Shown here: in pieces, positions 16,623-21,684 of the stretch
Layout of the letters: each line of letters begins with the position of its first letter
How positions within the stretch are numbered: position 1 is the first letter of the stretch
Source of the DNA: Brevibacillus laterosporus
GTDB lineage: Bacteria > Bacillota > Bacilli > Brevibacillales > Brevibacillaceae
Length of the DNA: 64,000 nucleotides
Assembly (NCBI GenBank): GCA_007833815.1
Contig: CP033464.1
Location: 1 to 64,000, forward strand
Direction: 5' to 3'
Notes under the pieces: generated by a model
What the model saw: the letters and a program-made list of their open reading frames with translations, nothing else
Told to the model about the DNA's origin: nothing
Database searches by the model: none
Program-made: the position numbers and the translations under genes

Positions 16623-17336
16623 GTGAAACCAAGAGGCTGGTCCTATACGAATACAAAATATCAGCAGATGAGTAATCTACATCCATTCAACTTCTTTGTT
16701 CCGTTAGTGGAACAGGTAAAGCATGGCGTAGTTTCTCTTATCTGCGAAGACAACACCTCCCCTCCAGACATCGATCAGATTTTGCAAAGCTTTTTGGACA
16801 TGGAACCGCTCGAAGCAGGTCAGACGGAAAAAAGCTTTGGTTCCGGCTTCATTTTTCATCCCAAGGGCTATATTCTCACCAGTGAACACGTTATAGGCAA
16901 ATCCACATCTATTTATGTAAAAATGTGGAACGGAAAGGTATTTGAAGCTAAGCTCATTTTTAGTGATCCTCAACGGGATTACGCTATCGTAAAAATTGAA
17001 ACAGATATTCGTCTTAGTCCACTGCCTCTTGGCAATTCAGGTGAGGCACGCGTAGGTGAATGGGTCATTAGCGTCGGAAGTCCCCTTGGTTTAGAAAATT
17101 CAGTTACAGCGGGCATTATAAGTGCCAAAAACAGGCGTATTCAGGTATCTAAAAGATTATACGATGAAATCTTCCAGACAGATGCTGCCATTAATCCCGG
17201 TAACAGCGGAGGCCCCTTAATTAATTTACACGGTGAAGTAATAGGTCTAAACGCATTTATCATCCAGTCTAGTCAATGCCTTGGTTTTGCCATTGGAATT
17301 GATAGTATTAAGAAGAAAATCCAGCAACTTTTATAG
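16623..17336 (+). CDS. Soluble trypsin-like serine protease (HtrA/DegP protease domain only)
   Basis: Chymotrypsin-fold protease of 237 residues. The catalytic triad is visible: His89 in TSEHVIG, Asp119 in RDYAIVKI and Ser195 in PGNSGGPL. It lacks the N-terminal membrane segment and the C-terminal PDZ domain of Bacillus HtrA/HtrB/YyxA and shows no signal peptide. It may therefore be cytoplasmic or leave the cell by another route. The GTG start at 16623 has AAGGAG at good distance. The divergent padR gene may control it. Function beyond proteolysis is not clear. Confidence 0.88.
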   Translation: MKPRGWSYTNTKYQQMSNLHPFNFFVPLVEQVKHGVVSLICEDNTSPPDIDQILQSFLDMEPLEAGQTEKSFGSGFIFHPKGYILTSEHVIGKSTSIYVKMWNGKVFEAKLIFSDPQRDYAIVKIETDIRLSPLPLGNSGEARVGEWVISVGSPLGLENSVTAGIISAKNRRIQVSKRLYDEIFQTDAAINPGNSGGPLINLHGEVIGLNAFIIQSSQCLGFAIGIDSIKKKIQQLL

Positions 17337-17921: not shown

Positions 17922-18081
17922 GTAAAGGAGCAACGTAGTGCAGTATTCCCGCGAAGAAGCACTTTCATCATACATATAAAAAAAGCAACATGGATACATT
18001 CGATCCACCTTGCTTTTTACTCTCTATAAGAAATGAGTTTCTCATGTTTATATTCATTATCAAGTGCTAGGAAGCTGTTTG

Positions 18082-18228
18082 CTACTCTTCCTGCTTTTTG
18101 TTGAATGCAATCAGATAGACCTCCTGATCGCCCTGAATGTTTAATTCTTGTTCCATTTGTTTTAATTGATGTAGCTGCGCAGAGTCTAACTCTGCAAATG
18201 GCATTTCACTAAGATGTTTATGTTCCAT
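18082..18228 (-). CDS. Small protein of 48 residues downstream of the DUF2325 gene
   Basis: ATG 18228 follows GGTAGGTGAG. The product is acidic and helical (rich in Glu, Gln, Leu, His), beginning MEHKHLSEMPFAELD and ending NKKQEE, without cysteine or membrane segment. I do not recognise the family. It follows the DUF2325 gene on the minus strand after 110 bases and probably shares its Fur-controlled transcript. A longer frame from 18336 has no ribosome binding site. Confidence 0.6.
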   Translation of the reverse strand: MEHKHLSEMPFAELDSAQLHQLKQMEQELNIQGDQEVYLIAFNKKQEE

Positions 18229-18338
18229 TTTCTCACCTACCTTCCACAATTCACAAGCTCTTATGTAGATTGTCCTGTGGGGGAGGAAAACATGCGCTTC
18301 TGTAATAACTAAGGATTGAGTGATTATTTTGGTCAAAA

Positions 18339-18626
18339 TTAAGCACTAACCGTTTGCGTTTGCAACACTTGAGATACAGCCGAGCAAGAACGTTTACAAA
18401 AACAAATAGGCACTTGTTTGTCTTTTGCTTTCGATTTGATTTTTTTCGCCAAGTTATGATTAACAAAATCGGTTAGAACTAAAATCATTTTAACATCAGA
18501 TGGAATTTTCAAACTGGTCTCTGAGCTTTTCCTACCTGTAATATGGTGGATCTTTTTATACCCCACCTCTTCAAGTATTTGTAAAATATTGCCTAACCTA
18601 TCCCCACCAATGATTAATATAGACAT
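18339..18626 (-). CDS. DUF2325 domain protein
   Basis: 95 residues with the DUF2325 pattern: MSILIIGGDRLGNI at the start, HHITGRK, then LTDFVNHNLAKKIK and a final CFCKRSCSA. The fold is expected to be Rossmann-like. The function is unknown, and the family often occurs near metal or redox genes. AAGGAGG precedes ATG 18626. It is divergent from the IMEF-encapsulin operon and shares with it a region holding two Fur-like boxes, so it is probably iron-regulated. Confidence 0.85.
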   Translation of the reverse strand: MSILIIGGDRLGNILQILEEVGYKKIHHITGRKSSETSLKIPSDVKMILVLTDFVNHNLAKKIKSKAKDKQVPICFCKRSCSAVSQVLQTQTVSA

Positions 18627-18701
18627 AATAGAAATCCTCCTTTAGATTGTTTGTGCATAAGACCCCTGACGGTCAAAAAACAGTTAGATCACTGTTTATT
18701 C

Positions 18702-18730
18702 GTTATATGTTTCTGAAGCCAAAAAGTTAA
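18702..18730 (-). promoter_or_regulatory. Promoter of the DUF2325 gene
   Basis: On the minus strand TTAACT (18725-18730) and TATAAC (18702-18707) are separated by 17 bases. The Fur-like boxes lie immediately upstream of the -35 box. Confidence 0.5.
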
Positions 18731-18732
18731 TT

Positions 18733-18773
18733 GAGAATAAATATCATTCTTATTGATAAATATTATCATTACC
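18733..18773. promoter_or_regulatory. Two Fur-like boxes in the DUF2325 / IMEF divergent region
   Basis: GAGAATAAATATCATTCTT (18733-18751; its reverse complement matches 14 of 19 bases of the Fur consensus) and GATAAATATTATCATTACC (18755-18773; 15 of 19) form a tandem. The inner TGATAAA-T-ATTATCA fits the 7-1-7 model with one mismatch. PerR or Zur are less likely from the bases at the arm ends, but the boxes of this family are similar. Confidence 0.65.
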
Positions 18774-18848
18774 AATTAAGTTTGACAATACTCTGTACTA
18801 TTTTTTTATCGTTTGTTCACACTATTTTTACAAGCTACAGCTCTATCC

Positions 18849-18878
18849 TTGATTGGATGCTTTTCCCACGGTTATAAT
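18849..18878 (+). promoter_or_regulatory. Promoter of the IMEF-encapsulin operon
   Basis: TTGATT (18849-18854) and a perfect TATAAT (18873-18878) are 18 bases apart, 39 bases before the IMEF start. A second TTGACA at 18782 has no good -10 partner. Confidence 0.6.
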
Positions 18879-18916
18879 CAAGCTATCACAATTCTTAAAA
18901 AAGGAGGTGGGAGTTT

Positions 18917-19564
18917 ATGATGCAAGAAATCAAGCAGCTCCACACCATCTTTACCCGCACATTAGAAGGCATCAATGTTTTTCGCACCATGGTCCAACCT
19001 TTGATCGATCACGCAAGAGATGAACATATGAAGCTTTACTATCACCACATTTCTGAAGAAGAAGAACAACGGGAAGAACGATTGAATGATCTCGTCCCTC
19101 GTTTGTCGCTACTCATTCGGGAGAACAATCTGGATCAACTGAGTGATCGCGAGCTGTCTCACTTGCTTTCTGACTTACATTTAGAGCGGTTTGGCTTACA
19201 CAATTTCCGTGAGCATTTAGAATTAGCCCTGTATGAATTTACAGATGAACCTAGCCGAATAAAGCTGGACAGCATGCGTGAAAACACTCATCAAGACTAT
19301 TTAGCAACCAAAGAGATCATGGGTAAGCTAAGTGAAAAATTCTCTGATGTCGTTCCGGCAAAAGTGGATACACACGACCATGACCATGGCCATGATGTCC
19401 ATCAGGTAAATCACTTTGAGGTTTCGTCCGCGTTGCAAGATTCTAGTAGCTCCAAGCAAACATCGACTGTACCTGCTGAAGCTCACAGTCATTCATCAGA
19501 GTCGTCTGTTGCCAAAAAAGGACTTACAGTTGGAAGTCTGCGTCATCTCAATCGTCACGTATAA
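18917..19564 (+). CDS. IMEF-type encapsulin cargo, ferritin-like iron-mineralising protein
   Basis: Residues 1-145 form a helical bundle with the Glu/His spacing of a ferritin-like diiron protein (DHARDEH, HHISEEEEQREER, HQDYLATKE). It resembles the iron-mineralising encapsulin-associated Firmicute family. Residues 151-166 are a His/Asp-rich stretch (DTHDHDHGHD). A Ser-rich linker then leads to the C-terminal targeting peptide GLTVGSLRHLN (202-212), which in this family docks the cargo inside the shell. Encapsulin follows after 27 bases. Start ATG 18917 (or 18920) has GGAGGTGG. Iron oxidation and storage are expected from the family; Fur-like boxes upstream agree. Confidence 0.92.
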   Translation: MMQEIKQLHTIFTRTLEGINVFRTMVQPLIDHARDEHMKLYYHHISEEEEQREERLNDLVPRLSLLIRENNLDQLSDRELSHLLSDLHLERFGLHNFREHLELALYEFTDEPSRIKLDSMRENTHQDYLATKEIMGKLSEKFSDVVPAKVDTHDHDHGHDVHQVNHFEVSSALQDSSSSKQTSTVPAEAHSHSSESSVAKKGLTVGSLRHLNRHV

Positions 19565-19591
19565 GAGAACAGTTCAAGATCGGAGGCTTTT

Positions 19592-20434
19592 ATGGATAAA
19601 GCACAGAAATTCCCAGACTCCCCATTGTCAAAGGAAGAATGGCGTCAATTAGACGATACCATTGTTGAAATGGCTCGTCGTCAACTCGTAGGTCGTCGAT
19701 TCATTGACATTTACGGCCCACTAGGAGAAGGTATTCAAACCATTACCAACGATATTTATGATGAATCTCGTTTCGGAAATATGAGTTTGCGCGGTGAATC
19801 ACTAGAATTAACACAGCCAAGTAAACGAGTTAGCTTAACGATTCCGATCGTGTACAAAGATTTCATGCTGTACTGGCGCGATATGGCACAAGCCCGCACA
19901 TTGGGTATGCCAATTGATCTCAGCTCTGCGGCAAATGCTGCCAGTAGTTGCGCTCTTATGGAAGATGATATGATCTTTAATGGTAGCCCTGAGTTTGACT
20001 TGCCAGGTATCATGAATGTAAAAGGACGTCTCACGCATATTAAGAGCGACTGGATGGAATCAGGCAATGCTTTTGCCGATATCGTAGAAGCTAGAAATAA
20101 GCTGTTAAAAATGGGCCACAGCGGTCCATATGCCCTTGTTGTATCCCCAGAGCTGTATTCTTTGCTCCACCGTGTACACAAAGGCACCAATGTCCTTGAA
20201 ATTGATCACGTTCGCAACTTGGTTACAGACGGTGTATTCCAATCTCCTGTAATCAAAGGCGGTGTTCTAGTAGCTACAGGAAGACATAACCTAGACCTTG
20301 CGATTGCTGAGGATTTTGATTCAGCTTTCCTAGGAGACGAACAAATGAACAGCCTCATGCGCGTATATGAGTGTGCTGTTCTACGCATTAAGCGTCCAAG
20401 TGCAATTTGCACATTGGAAATGACAGAAGAATAG
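19592..20434 (+). CDS. enc: Encapsulin shell protein (family 1, IMEF type)
   Basis: HK97-fold shell protein of 280 residues that self-assembles into a closed nanocompartment. Recognisable parts are the N-terminal helix SPLSKEEWRQLDDTIVEMAR, the RRFIDIYGPLG segment, the E-loop region with RVSLTIPIVYKDF, and the C-terminal HNLDLAIAEDFDSAFLG and CAVLRIKRP. IMEF-linked shells from Firmicutes form large T=4 particles that store thousands of irons; that this one does so is inference. GATCGGAGG precedes ATG 19592. It is second in the operon and is closed by a strong terminator. Confidence 0.95.
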   Translation: MDKAQKFPDSPLSKEEWRQLDDTIVEMARRQLVGRRFIDIYGPLGEGIQTITNDIYDESRFGNMSLRGESLELTQPSKRVSLTIPIVYKDFMLYWRDMAQARTLGMPIDLSSAANAASSCALMEDDMIFNGSPEFDLPGIMNVKGRLTHIKSDWMESGNAFADIVEARNKLLKMGHSGPYALVVSPELYSLLHRVHKGTNVLEIDHVRNLVTDGVFQSPVIKGGVLVATGRHNLDLAIAEDFDSAFLGDEQMNSLMRVYECAVLRIKRPSAICTLEMTEE

Positions 20435-20460
20435 ACAAAACAATCTACGTATGTAGAAAG

Positions 20461-20499
20461 AGAGATAGCCATTCTTTTTTGGTGGCTATCTCTCTTATT
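20461..20499 (+). terminator. Terminator of the encapsulin operon
   Basis: AGAGATAGCCA pairs exactly with TGGCTATCTCT and is followed by a T-rich tail. Confidence 0.85.
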
Positions 20500-20550
20500 T
20501 CTTGATCCAATATTATTTTTAATCAAAATTTTCAGTTATTTAAAAGGGAT

Positions 20551-20576
20551 AAAAAACCTTAGGAACGACCCTAAGG
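20551..20576 (-). terminator. Terminator of the six-cysteine gene
   Basis: On the minus strand GCCTTAGG-gtcgtt-CCTAAGG is followed by six T, 28 bases past the stop codon at 20604. Confidence 0.85.
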
Positions 20577-20603
20577 CAGACATACATGTATGGTAGAAAG
20601 CGA

Positions 20604-21077
20604 TTACGCAATCCGAACGATTTTTTGTGTATCAGCAGTATGTAAGAAAGGCATATCTACGTGGCTAATCGCTGTTTCATAACCAATATCACAAACTAAT
20701 ACATCTACCTCTTCACAAAAAGGCAGTGTACAGCTTCCTTCGTTCAATTCGCACAGGCGTTTTAAATGTTTGAGTCGCTCTGCCACTTTTTGCTGCCGCA
20801 TATAATTATTAACCAATTCACAAACATTGAGATGGCGAGCATCCACTATCATGCTGATATCCTGAATGTGAACGATCAGACGTTTTCCTTCTTCTGTAAC
20901 AAATCCCAGAGAACAGAACTGAGAATCGGACATCTCTAGACGAGTAATCACCGCGTGTTTATACTCTTCTCCAGAGCGGAGCTTGATGGTATCCGCTTCA
21001 ACTGCGCCGCCTATTTTACGCTCATTGGATACAACTGTATACATATCGGTATAACCGTTAATTTGATACCTCGTCAT
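20604..21077 (-). CDS. Unrecognised six-cysteine protein, probably Fur-regulated, convergent with encapsulin
   Basis: 157 residues from ATG 21077, which follows AGGAG; a longer frame to 21188 crosses the Fur-like boxes and is rejected. The first 80 residues look like a beta-rich PilZ- or SH3-like barrel (repeated short hydrophobic strands: SLGFVTEEGKRLIVHIQD). A charged helix (90-110) and a C-terminal part follow. Cysteines are at 55, 86, 109, 116, 121 and 129, the last four spaced as in metal or Fe-S sites. No signal or membrane segment. Two strong Fur-like boxes lie upstream and the encapsulin genes point towards it. A role in iron loading or release is a guess; I do not know the family. 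Confidence 0.75.
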   Translation of the reverse strand: MTRYQINGYTDMYTVVSNERKIGGAVEADTIKLRSGEEYKHAVITRLEMSDSQFCSLGFVTEEGKRLIVHIQDISMIVDARHLNVCELVNNYMRQQKVAERLKHLKRLCELNEGSCTLPFCEEVDVLVCDIGYETAISHVDMPFLHTADTQKIVRIA

Positions 21078-21107
21078 CGGAAATTCACTCCTATTCTTAT
21101 CGTATCT

Positions 21108-21164
21108 GCTAATGAGACTCATTATCAAATTTGTTATTTGTATCGTATAATGAAAATCATTATT
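21108..21164 (-). promoter_or_regulatory. Two strong Fur-like boxes upstream of the six-cysteine gene
   Basis: GCTAATGAGACTCATTATC (21108-21126) and TATAATGAAAATCATTATT (21146-21164) each match 16 of 19 bases of the Fur consensus. They lie 31-87 bases upstream of the start codon, where a bound Fur would block transcription. Confidence 0.75.
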
Positions 21165-21263
21165 AGTCAATATTGAGATTGTAACCAATGTTTTTATCTA
21201 GATTATCATGTATCTTTTCCCGAATACCTCTTGTTTAATCTGTAAAAATGGTCCAATGCAACA

Positions 21264-21303
21264 CAAAAACCCGTCTCACTTTTATCGCGAAAAACGGGTT
21301 TTT
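21264..21303. terminator. Terminator of the XRE / membrane protein pair
   Basis: AAAAACCCG...CGGGTTTTT with A-rich and T-rich flanks; it can act in both directions and lies downstream of the stop at 21391 on the minus strand. Confidence 0.75.
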
Positions 21304-21390
21304 GGTTTTTACTCTTATTTATATAGACGGTTTATCAATGATTTGGTAACAAATAGTAGTCTGCATCTCGAAAACTAAGTACATGTTTGA

Positions 21391-21684
21391 TTAAACAGTT
21401 TTATTTTTATAAAAGATATAGACGGCAATAAAAATACCAGATATCCAAATAGACATCAGAGCAAAATCAAAAGCAATTTTGTATCCAACAGAAATAAATG
21501 ATAGCTTTGCTGTTAGAAAGGAAAGAAGGATTCCAATTACAGCAATGGAATAACCCAATGTATATCCATTCGTCAAAATTTGTTTACCACGTTCATCTTT
21601 TCCTTCTGATCTCGTAAAAGCTACGGTGTAAGAAACCGAAATGGTATAGGTAATCACAAGTAAAATAAATAAAACTTCTAACAT
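21391..21684 (-). CDS. Small three-helix membrane protein
   Basis: 97 residues with three hydrophobic segments: about 3-24, 45-62 and 70-91. A charged loop (RSEGKDERGK) links the first two. It resembles the DUF2178-like small membrane proteins often paired with a tiny XRE repressor. The gene starts 7 bases inside the XRE gene, so translation is coupled. Function unknown. Confidence 0.75.
   Translation of the reverse strand: MLEVLFILLVITYTISVSYTVAFTRSEGKDERGKQILTNGYTLGYSIAVIGILLSFLTAKLSFISVGYKIAFDFALMSIWISGIFIAVYIFYKNKTV

Follow-up and report, generated by a model that had tools for sequence, protein, structure and literature searches.

The first 64,000 nucleotides of the Brevibacillus laterosporus contig CP033464.1 (assembly GCA_007833815.1), the whole of which is referred to as the window, carry a gene for a ferritin-like IMEF cargo protein followed by a gene for an encapsulin shell. 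We lean towards a model in which this IMEF-type iron store is flanked by two genes repressed by Fur, one encoding a DUF2325 protein and the other an undescribed protein, termed here the companion, the products of which would aid mobilization of the store when iron is low. A preliminary description of the window had reported the cargo and encapsulin genes and two Fur-like boxes within the range 18733–20499. The companion gene lies outside this range and neither the gene nor the pair of boxes that precedes it, at 21113 and 21151, was listed. A Fur-like box is a 7-1-7 pattern scored out of 14 positions, and by Brevibacillus family we mean a family of 40 genomes, the named records of which are nearly all Brevibacillus, with an IMEF locus in 34 and no IMEF match in six. 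The features concerned are as follows.

18339–18626, minus strand: DUF2325 gene, 95 amino acids, divergent from IMEF (PF10087, 65.6 bits)
18732–18746, no strand: Fur-like box 1, 12/14, conserved in the Brevibacillus family
18754–18768, no strand: Fur-like box 2, TGATAAATATTATCA, 13/14, identical in 34/34 loci
18760–18788, minus strand: predicted DUF2325 promoter TTGTCA-17-TAATAT, TG before the -10 element, which lies inside box 2 (promoter scan)
18849–18878, plus strand: predicted IMEF–encapsulin promoter TTGATT-18-TATAAT, with no overlapping Fur-like box (promoter scan, TATAAT conservation)
18917–19564, plus strand: IMEF ferritin-like cargo gene, 215 amino acids (TIGR04536, PF24309, PDB entry 6n63)
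19520–19552, plus strand: C-terminal targeting peptide GLTVGSLRHLN of the cargo (homologue alignment)
19592–20434, plus strand: family 1 encapsulin shell gene, 280 amino acids (NF041155; PDB entries 9fy6 and 6nj8)
20458–20496, plus strand: terminator-like stem after the encapsulin gene, 16 pairs and a T run
20556–20577, minus strand: terminator-like stem after the companion gene, nine pairs and a T run
20604–21077, minus strand: undescribed companion gene, 157 amino acids, convergent with the encapsulin gene (no informative family match; co-occurrence with IMEF)
21113–21127, no strand: Fur-like box upstream of the companion gene, 12/14
21142–21170, minus strand: predicted companion promoter TTGACT-17-TACGAT (promoter scan)
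21151–21165, no strand: Fur-like box, 12/14, in the spacer between the -35 and -10 elements of the predicted companion promoter, overlapping the -35 element by one base

Profile searches confirm the window pair as an IMEF-type encapsulin system, which is a known kind. The cargo matches the NCBIfam equivalog TIGR04536 at 270 bits, against a curated cut-off of 100, and Pfam PF24309 (IMEF_Flp) at 169.5 bits, and has one significant solved relative, PDB entry 6n63 (E = 1.4e-29). The C-terminal end of the cargo is KKGLTVGSLRHLNRHV; the targeting peptide lies within KKGLTVGSLRHLN, where KGLTVGSL is invariant in ten aligned homologues. The encapsulin scores 299 bits against NF041155 (cut-off 100) and 259 bits against Linocin_M18. 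Its closest PDB shells are 9fy6 and 6nj8 (E = 2.9e-121 for the latter), and we take 6nj8 to be a T = 4 shell. The gap between the two genes was measured as 27 bases, as in the preliminary description, and its reading of an IMEF-like cargo with a C-terminal targeting peptide next to an encapsulin is borne out by both proteins scoring above curated cut-offs. From family membership it follows that the pair would store iron. In the IMEF encapsulin of Quasibacillus thermotolerans, ferroxidase activity and an iron core have been shown (PMC6668986), and the window resembles that organism in that the encapsulin gene adjoins a gene for a cargo whose C-terminus bears a targeting peptide, cargo and shell being homologous to 6n63 and 6nj8. 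It differs from operons of the Q. thermotolerans type, as these are presented in PMC6668986, in that no ferredoxin is adjacent and that a boxed divergent DUF2325 gene and a boxed convergent companion are present.

Both window genes are already in print. In a 2023 study of B. laterosporus 1821L a '25 kDa hypothetical protein' at 18,917–19,564 and a 31.4 kDa encapsulating protein at 19,592–20,434 were cloned (PMC10313851); the published coordinates are exactly those of the window genes, which makes it very probable that the window is the beginning of the 1821L chromosome. The pair was labelled as a bacteriocin, Linocin M18, and a hypothetical protein, and the term IMEF does not occur in the main text of that paper. 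N-terminal sequencing of a band of about 30 kDa from a sucrose gradient matched both proteins, and electron microscopy revealed capsid-like particles in the fraction (PMC10313851). Recovery of the shell together with the IMEF cargo from a single particle fraction is consistent with an encapsulin carrying its cargo. That the shell is a bacteriocin, as published, strikes us as very improbable. When B. subtilis expressed one or both of the genes, its supernatants did inhibit B. laterosporus (PMC10313851), but the 25 kDa partner is an IMEF cargo over the curated cut-off and the neighbouring genes carry Fur-like boxes. Moreover, purification in the same work yielded no band at the expected 25 kDa, all of the bands seen being larger (PMC10313851). 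The published 'bacteriocin' of a bacterium under biopesticide development may be re-read as an iron store.

The promoter predicted for IMEF ranks in the top two of the matches in its region, which holds 15 promoter-like sites against an expectation of 9.9 (standard deviation 3.3). It is supported by its TATAAT element, which is retained 34–45 bases 5′ of the IMEF start in 33 of the 34 Brevibacillus-family loci, and the good promoter of the preliminary description is upheld, as is the terminator after the encapsulin gene, recovered as the stem listed above. As a class, though, terminator-like sites show no enrichment here (three found, 2.5 expected). An Rfam scan of positions 18000–21500 returned nothing at the gathering score and the exact pattern of the promoter element had no match in viral contigs. 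The data support the assignment of IMEF and encapsulin to a putative operon of two genes, served by a predicted promoter of its own on which no Fur-like box lies.

The companion tracks the IMEF gene closely. In a class sample of 399 genomes, with thresholds of E = 0.001 for IMEF and 1e-5 for the companion family, IMEF was matched in 51 genomes (48 above the family cut-off) and the companion family in 52, these being all 51 IMEF genomes and one other, G052. Comparison of 51/51 with 1/348 amongst genomes without an IMEF match gives a Fisher p value of 5e-64, which overstates independence, since the sample includes related genomes and most of the gene pairs are linked. In G052 the encapsulin is 52% identical to that of the window, and a weak IMEF-like frame (profile E = 8.5e-5, in a search confined to four loci) lies beside the companion. 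In G103, G179 and G292, the three genomes where IMEF scores under the cut-off, a companion lies within about 1.5 kb, and five Brevibacillus-family genomes in the sample lack both genes. The survey supports the view that the companion family occurs with IMEF-type systems; none was found without one in the sample.

Companion relatives adjoin the IMEF–encapsulin pair in all 27 loci outside the Brevibacillus family, which stem from 25 genomes (locus L142 of G179 is left out of this set and taken in amongst the 52 upstream loci considered below). The gene is convergent and 1.5–2.2 kb from the IMEF start in 24 of them, upstream on the IMEF strand in two and 5.4 kb away in one. Within the Brevibacillus family it falls inside the locus of approximately 10 kb in 24 of 34 cases and elsewhere in the genome in nine of the other ten, the remaining genome, G025, being unsearched. 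In some genomes it is several kilobases from IMEF or on a separate contig. One Ammoniphilus-type genome (G198) has two IMEF loci, L134 and L137, with a companion gene at each.

Once duplicates are removed, 41 of 52 loci have a Fur-like box scoring at least 12/14 within 250 bp 5′ of the companion, as do nine of nine further genomes where the gene is distant, giving 50/61. The raw count of 43/57 includes five duplicate records (L164, L165, L167, L176 and L177); L138, which ends before the upstream region, is scored as a miss, L232 repeats a genome already counted so that nine of ten distant loci were added, and the upstream region of the G025 companion stands outside the counts. Markov shuffles of the companion upstream regions yielded a box in 0.4 of 57. 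Amongst companions outside the Brevibacillus family a box was found in 16/26 at 12/14 or better and in 23/26 at 11/14 or better, and a control scan of the 300 bp 5′ of the encapsulin gene gave a box in 1/27. The best core promoter predicted for the companion shares bases with a box in 46 of 51 loci. Related species often share near-identical companion upstream regions, so these counts are not independent.

Fur-like sites are also unusually dense in the window. Five with at most two mismatches were found against 0.55 expected, a number reached by none of 100 shuffles, and all five fall within 18048–21165. Four are listed above; the fifth, at 18048–18062 with two mismatches, precedes no gene that could be assigned. 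When compared with consensus sequences that we assumed for Fur, PerR and Zur, the four listed boxes score 12–13, 10–11 and 8–9 out of 14, respectively. Across the genome there are 109 Fur-like sites per strand and 41 for the reversed pattern. Ten frames were scanned from those next to 16 loci with the strongest boxes, and they include two FecCD permeases, one Peripla_BP_2 binding protein and one imelysin; the less specific matches are a flavodoxin, an esterase, a catalase and an Nramp protein, and two frames have no iron-related match. The genome encodes three Fur-family proteins, one of which exceeds the Fur cut-off (238 bits, cut-off 220).

The preliminary description left two roles open for boxes 1 and 2, namely activation of the IMEF operon by Fur or service to the divergent DUF2325 gene only. 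The second of these is supported and the first is not. We consider it most likely that the two boxes belong to DUF2325, in a repression-type layout, because an invariant box sits on its predicted promoter, the boxes are kept where IMEF is missing and the distance to IMEF is variable. DUF2325 is the divergent neighbour of IMEF in 34/34 Brevibacillus-family loci, across which box 2 shows no variation, and in 3/27 loci outside the family. A promoter TTGNCA-17-TAATAT directed towards DUF2325 is present in 33/34 loci with a spacer of constantly 17 bp, and its TAATAT lies within the invariant box. With box 2 as the anchor of the alignment, 15 bp bins have a mean column identity of 0.84–1.0 from -30 to +44. 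On the DUF2325 side of this island identity drops abruptly to 0.54 and then to about 0.45–0.49, and on the IMEF side the fall is more gradual, by way of 0.78 and 0.66, to about 0.44. Four of the six Brevibacillus-family genomes that lack IMEF (G016, G027, G034 and G036) keep DUF2325 together with both boxes; the other two, G032 and G039, have no match to the DUF2325 gene.

Activation of the IMEF–encapsulin operon by Fur from these boxes under plentiful iron is, in our judgement, improbable. It would agree with their position at 18732–18768, upstream of the IMEF promoter at 18849–18878 as the preliminary description had it, and Fur has been described as an activator of pfeT, an efflux gene of B. 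subtilis (PMC7762939; PMC11202242). However, across the 33 loci measured box 2 lies anywhere between 107 and 215 bp from the IMEF -10 element, and this unfixed spacing and the persistence of the boxes with DUF2325 in genomes devoid of IMEF led us to reject direct activation as the principal interpretation. Furthermore, outside the family a box scoring 12/14 or better occurs within 300 bp of six of 27 IMEF genes and is missing from the other 21. In those six, the divergent gene is DUF2325 in two and the nearest divergent frame is lipoprotein-like by its N-terminus in two. Repression of DUF2325 by Fur is the favoured alternative.

Taken together, the sequence comparisons support a predicted Fur regulation of both flanking genes: DUF2325 and the companion each have a conserved 7-1-7 box on the predicted core promoter, and the IMEF–encapsulin operon has none on its promoter or at a fixed distance from it. 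In our model, when there is enough iron Fur–Fe would hold DUF2325 and the companion off, and shell and ferroxidase cargo would be produced and filled. As iron falls Fur would leave and the two genes would be switched on. Their products, judging by the predicted induction in low iron, may then help to mobilize, open or turn over the store. We propose that the companion is an iron-starvation companion, perhaps for iron release, and that it would be the genetic counterpart of Bfd for bacterioferritin though not itself a Bfd. The bfd gene is under Fur control, and the likeness envisaged is that of a small partner made in iron shortage that mobilizes stored iron. A more ambitious form of the model, which we put forward tentatively and think somewhat doubtful, is that IMEF encapsulins are three-part systems in which the companion is obligatory and drains or opens the store in iron shortage, with DUF2325 an auxiliary in the Brevibacillus family.

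The companion might instead be a regulator or an assembly inhibitor, halting synthesis or loading of the IMEF–encapsulin system in iron scarcity, and not a release factor. We regard this as rather unlikely, even if such a role would fit the co-occurrence and the boxes almost on a par with release and would suit a protein in which no redox motif was seen. For a regulator, no DNA-binding family was detected in the companion, and likeness to RemA or RemB does not exceed a probability of 1% in hhalign. The candidature of these two proteins was rejected at hhalign probabilities of 0.4 and 1.0%, despite a RemB score of E = 0.0074, the best amongst weak NCBIfam scores, and RemA-like matches in two of 23 family members.

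Other searches for the identity of the companion were similarly uninformative. It has no match in Pfam or PHROGs, no single Pfam family is matched by more than two of the 23 members, and the PDB gave ten weak matches, the best with E = 0.017 to a designed TPR protein, no single stretch of which scores. A Bfd or [2Fe–2S] ferredoxin was considered and rejected, there being no profile match and no conserved set of cluster cysteines: the commonest cysteine column is occupied in 24/34 sequences and all others in less than 70%. Matches to PF04324 (Fer2_BFD) were listed for 29 genomes, none at the companion gene. No targeting peptide of the IMEF type was found in the companion, and a search for the family on plasmids gave no match. 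At its C-terminus (window positions 20607–20621) the final pair is Ile-Ala in 43/52 sequences, preceded by a variable stretch; this ending could be an interaction or degradation tag.

With respect to DUF2325, a reading that comes close to even chances, falling a little short, is that it has a general function in redox or iron stress, under Fur-type or PerR-type control, and is a mere neighbour of the encapsulin. Its persistence in four genomes that lack IMEF fits with this, and we found no support for DUF2325 as an obligate partner of IMEF in view of the same four genomes. In Campylobacter jejuni the DUF2325 protein Cj1384 is PerR-regulated and clustered with katA (PMC9426514). Set against this are the strict adjacency to IMEF in the Brevibacillus family and its recurrence in three loci outside, and a published drawing that places DUF2325 next to the encapsulins of anammox bacteria as a potential secondary cargo (PMC6934571). 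A search of the PDB with DUF2325 gave a single match with E = 0.89. Many Brevibacillus-family genomes have a second copy elsewhere, of 45–58% identity, and the four that were read (L118–L121) have no boxes. In G034 the locus with DUF2325 and both boxes (L117) lacks IMEF, and encapsulin and companion are matched nearby over short stretches only; the encapsulin system of this genome seems to be in decay.

A role in iron release has previously been suggested for a different IMEF-linked protein (PMC6668986; PMC8346489), a [2Fe–2S] ferredoxin present in 70% of IMEF operons, with ferrochelatase-like proteins in 31% (PMC6668986). This ferredoxin often carries an N-terminal TVGSL motif (PMC8346489). 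The companion is like it in being a small partner linked to IMEF. The ferredoxin is not universal, in contrast to the companion, which is found in every sampled IMEF genome; it adjoins IMEF in 13/27 loci outside the Brevibacillus family. Of these 13 copies 12 were located for the box scan (that of L133 was not), and four of the 12 are divergent from the companion across the boxed region. No ferredoxin with a targeting peptide was detected in the window genome, the sole match being 31% identical and restricted to the ferredoxin domain. At the DNA level an LTVGSL pattern occurs in that genome at five forward and five reverse sites, against four and six for the control. Three sites are in frame: one is IMEF itself, one lies inside a frame of 101 codons and one is four codons from the end of a frame of 56 codons. 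Some Brevibacillus-family genomes have unlinked ferredoxins with an N-terminal LTVGSL motif (L192–L195), which resemble dispersed encapsulin cargo.

Several of these observations weigh against the model of two Fur-repressed genes that aid mobilization. Counts of co-occurrence and of boxes are inflated by linkage and relatedness, and the companions of L140, L141 and L166 have no box even at 11/14. Eight of the 12 adjacent ferredoxins have no Fur-like box within 250 bp and the four unlinked copies that were read are alike in this respect. One common Fur switch for release would thus appear not to be general, because most ferredoxin copies are without boxes. The companion has no Bfd match, no conserved cysteine set and no targeting peptide, so that a release role would be argued solely from regulation and co-occurrence. 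In addition, DUF2325 survives without IMEF in four genomes, and Fur is also capable of activation.

In the open-licence literature, a body that does not take in supplements or the 2017 survey in which IMEF was named, no description of the companion family or of Fur control of IMEF neighbours was found. The companion family, present in every sampled IMEF genome, found in none of the 399 without an encapsulin and preceded by Fur-like boxes, permits a direct test by gene deletion.

Two further frames lie near the locus. A frame of 50 codons beside DUF2325 (18082–18234, minus strand) has no Pfam match over the cut-off and none in NCBIfam or PHROG; it is conserved in 27/34 Brevibacillus-family IMEF loci and has relatives upstream of IMEF in two Ammoniphilus-type loci (L135 and L137). 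At 16623–17336 there is a trypsin-like protease domain of the HtrA type, 237 amino acids in length, relatives of which recur 5′ of many such loci.

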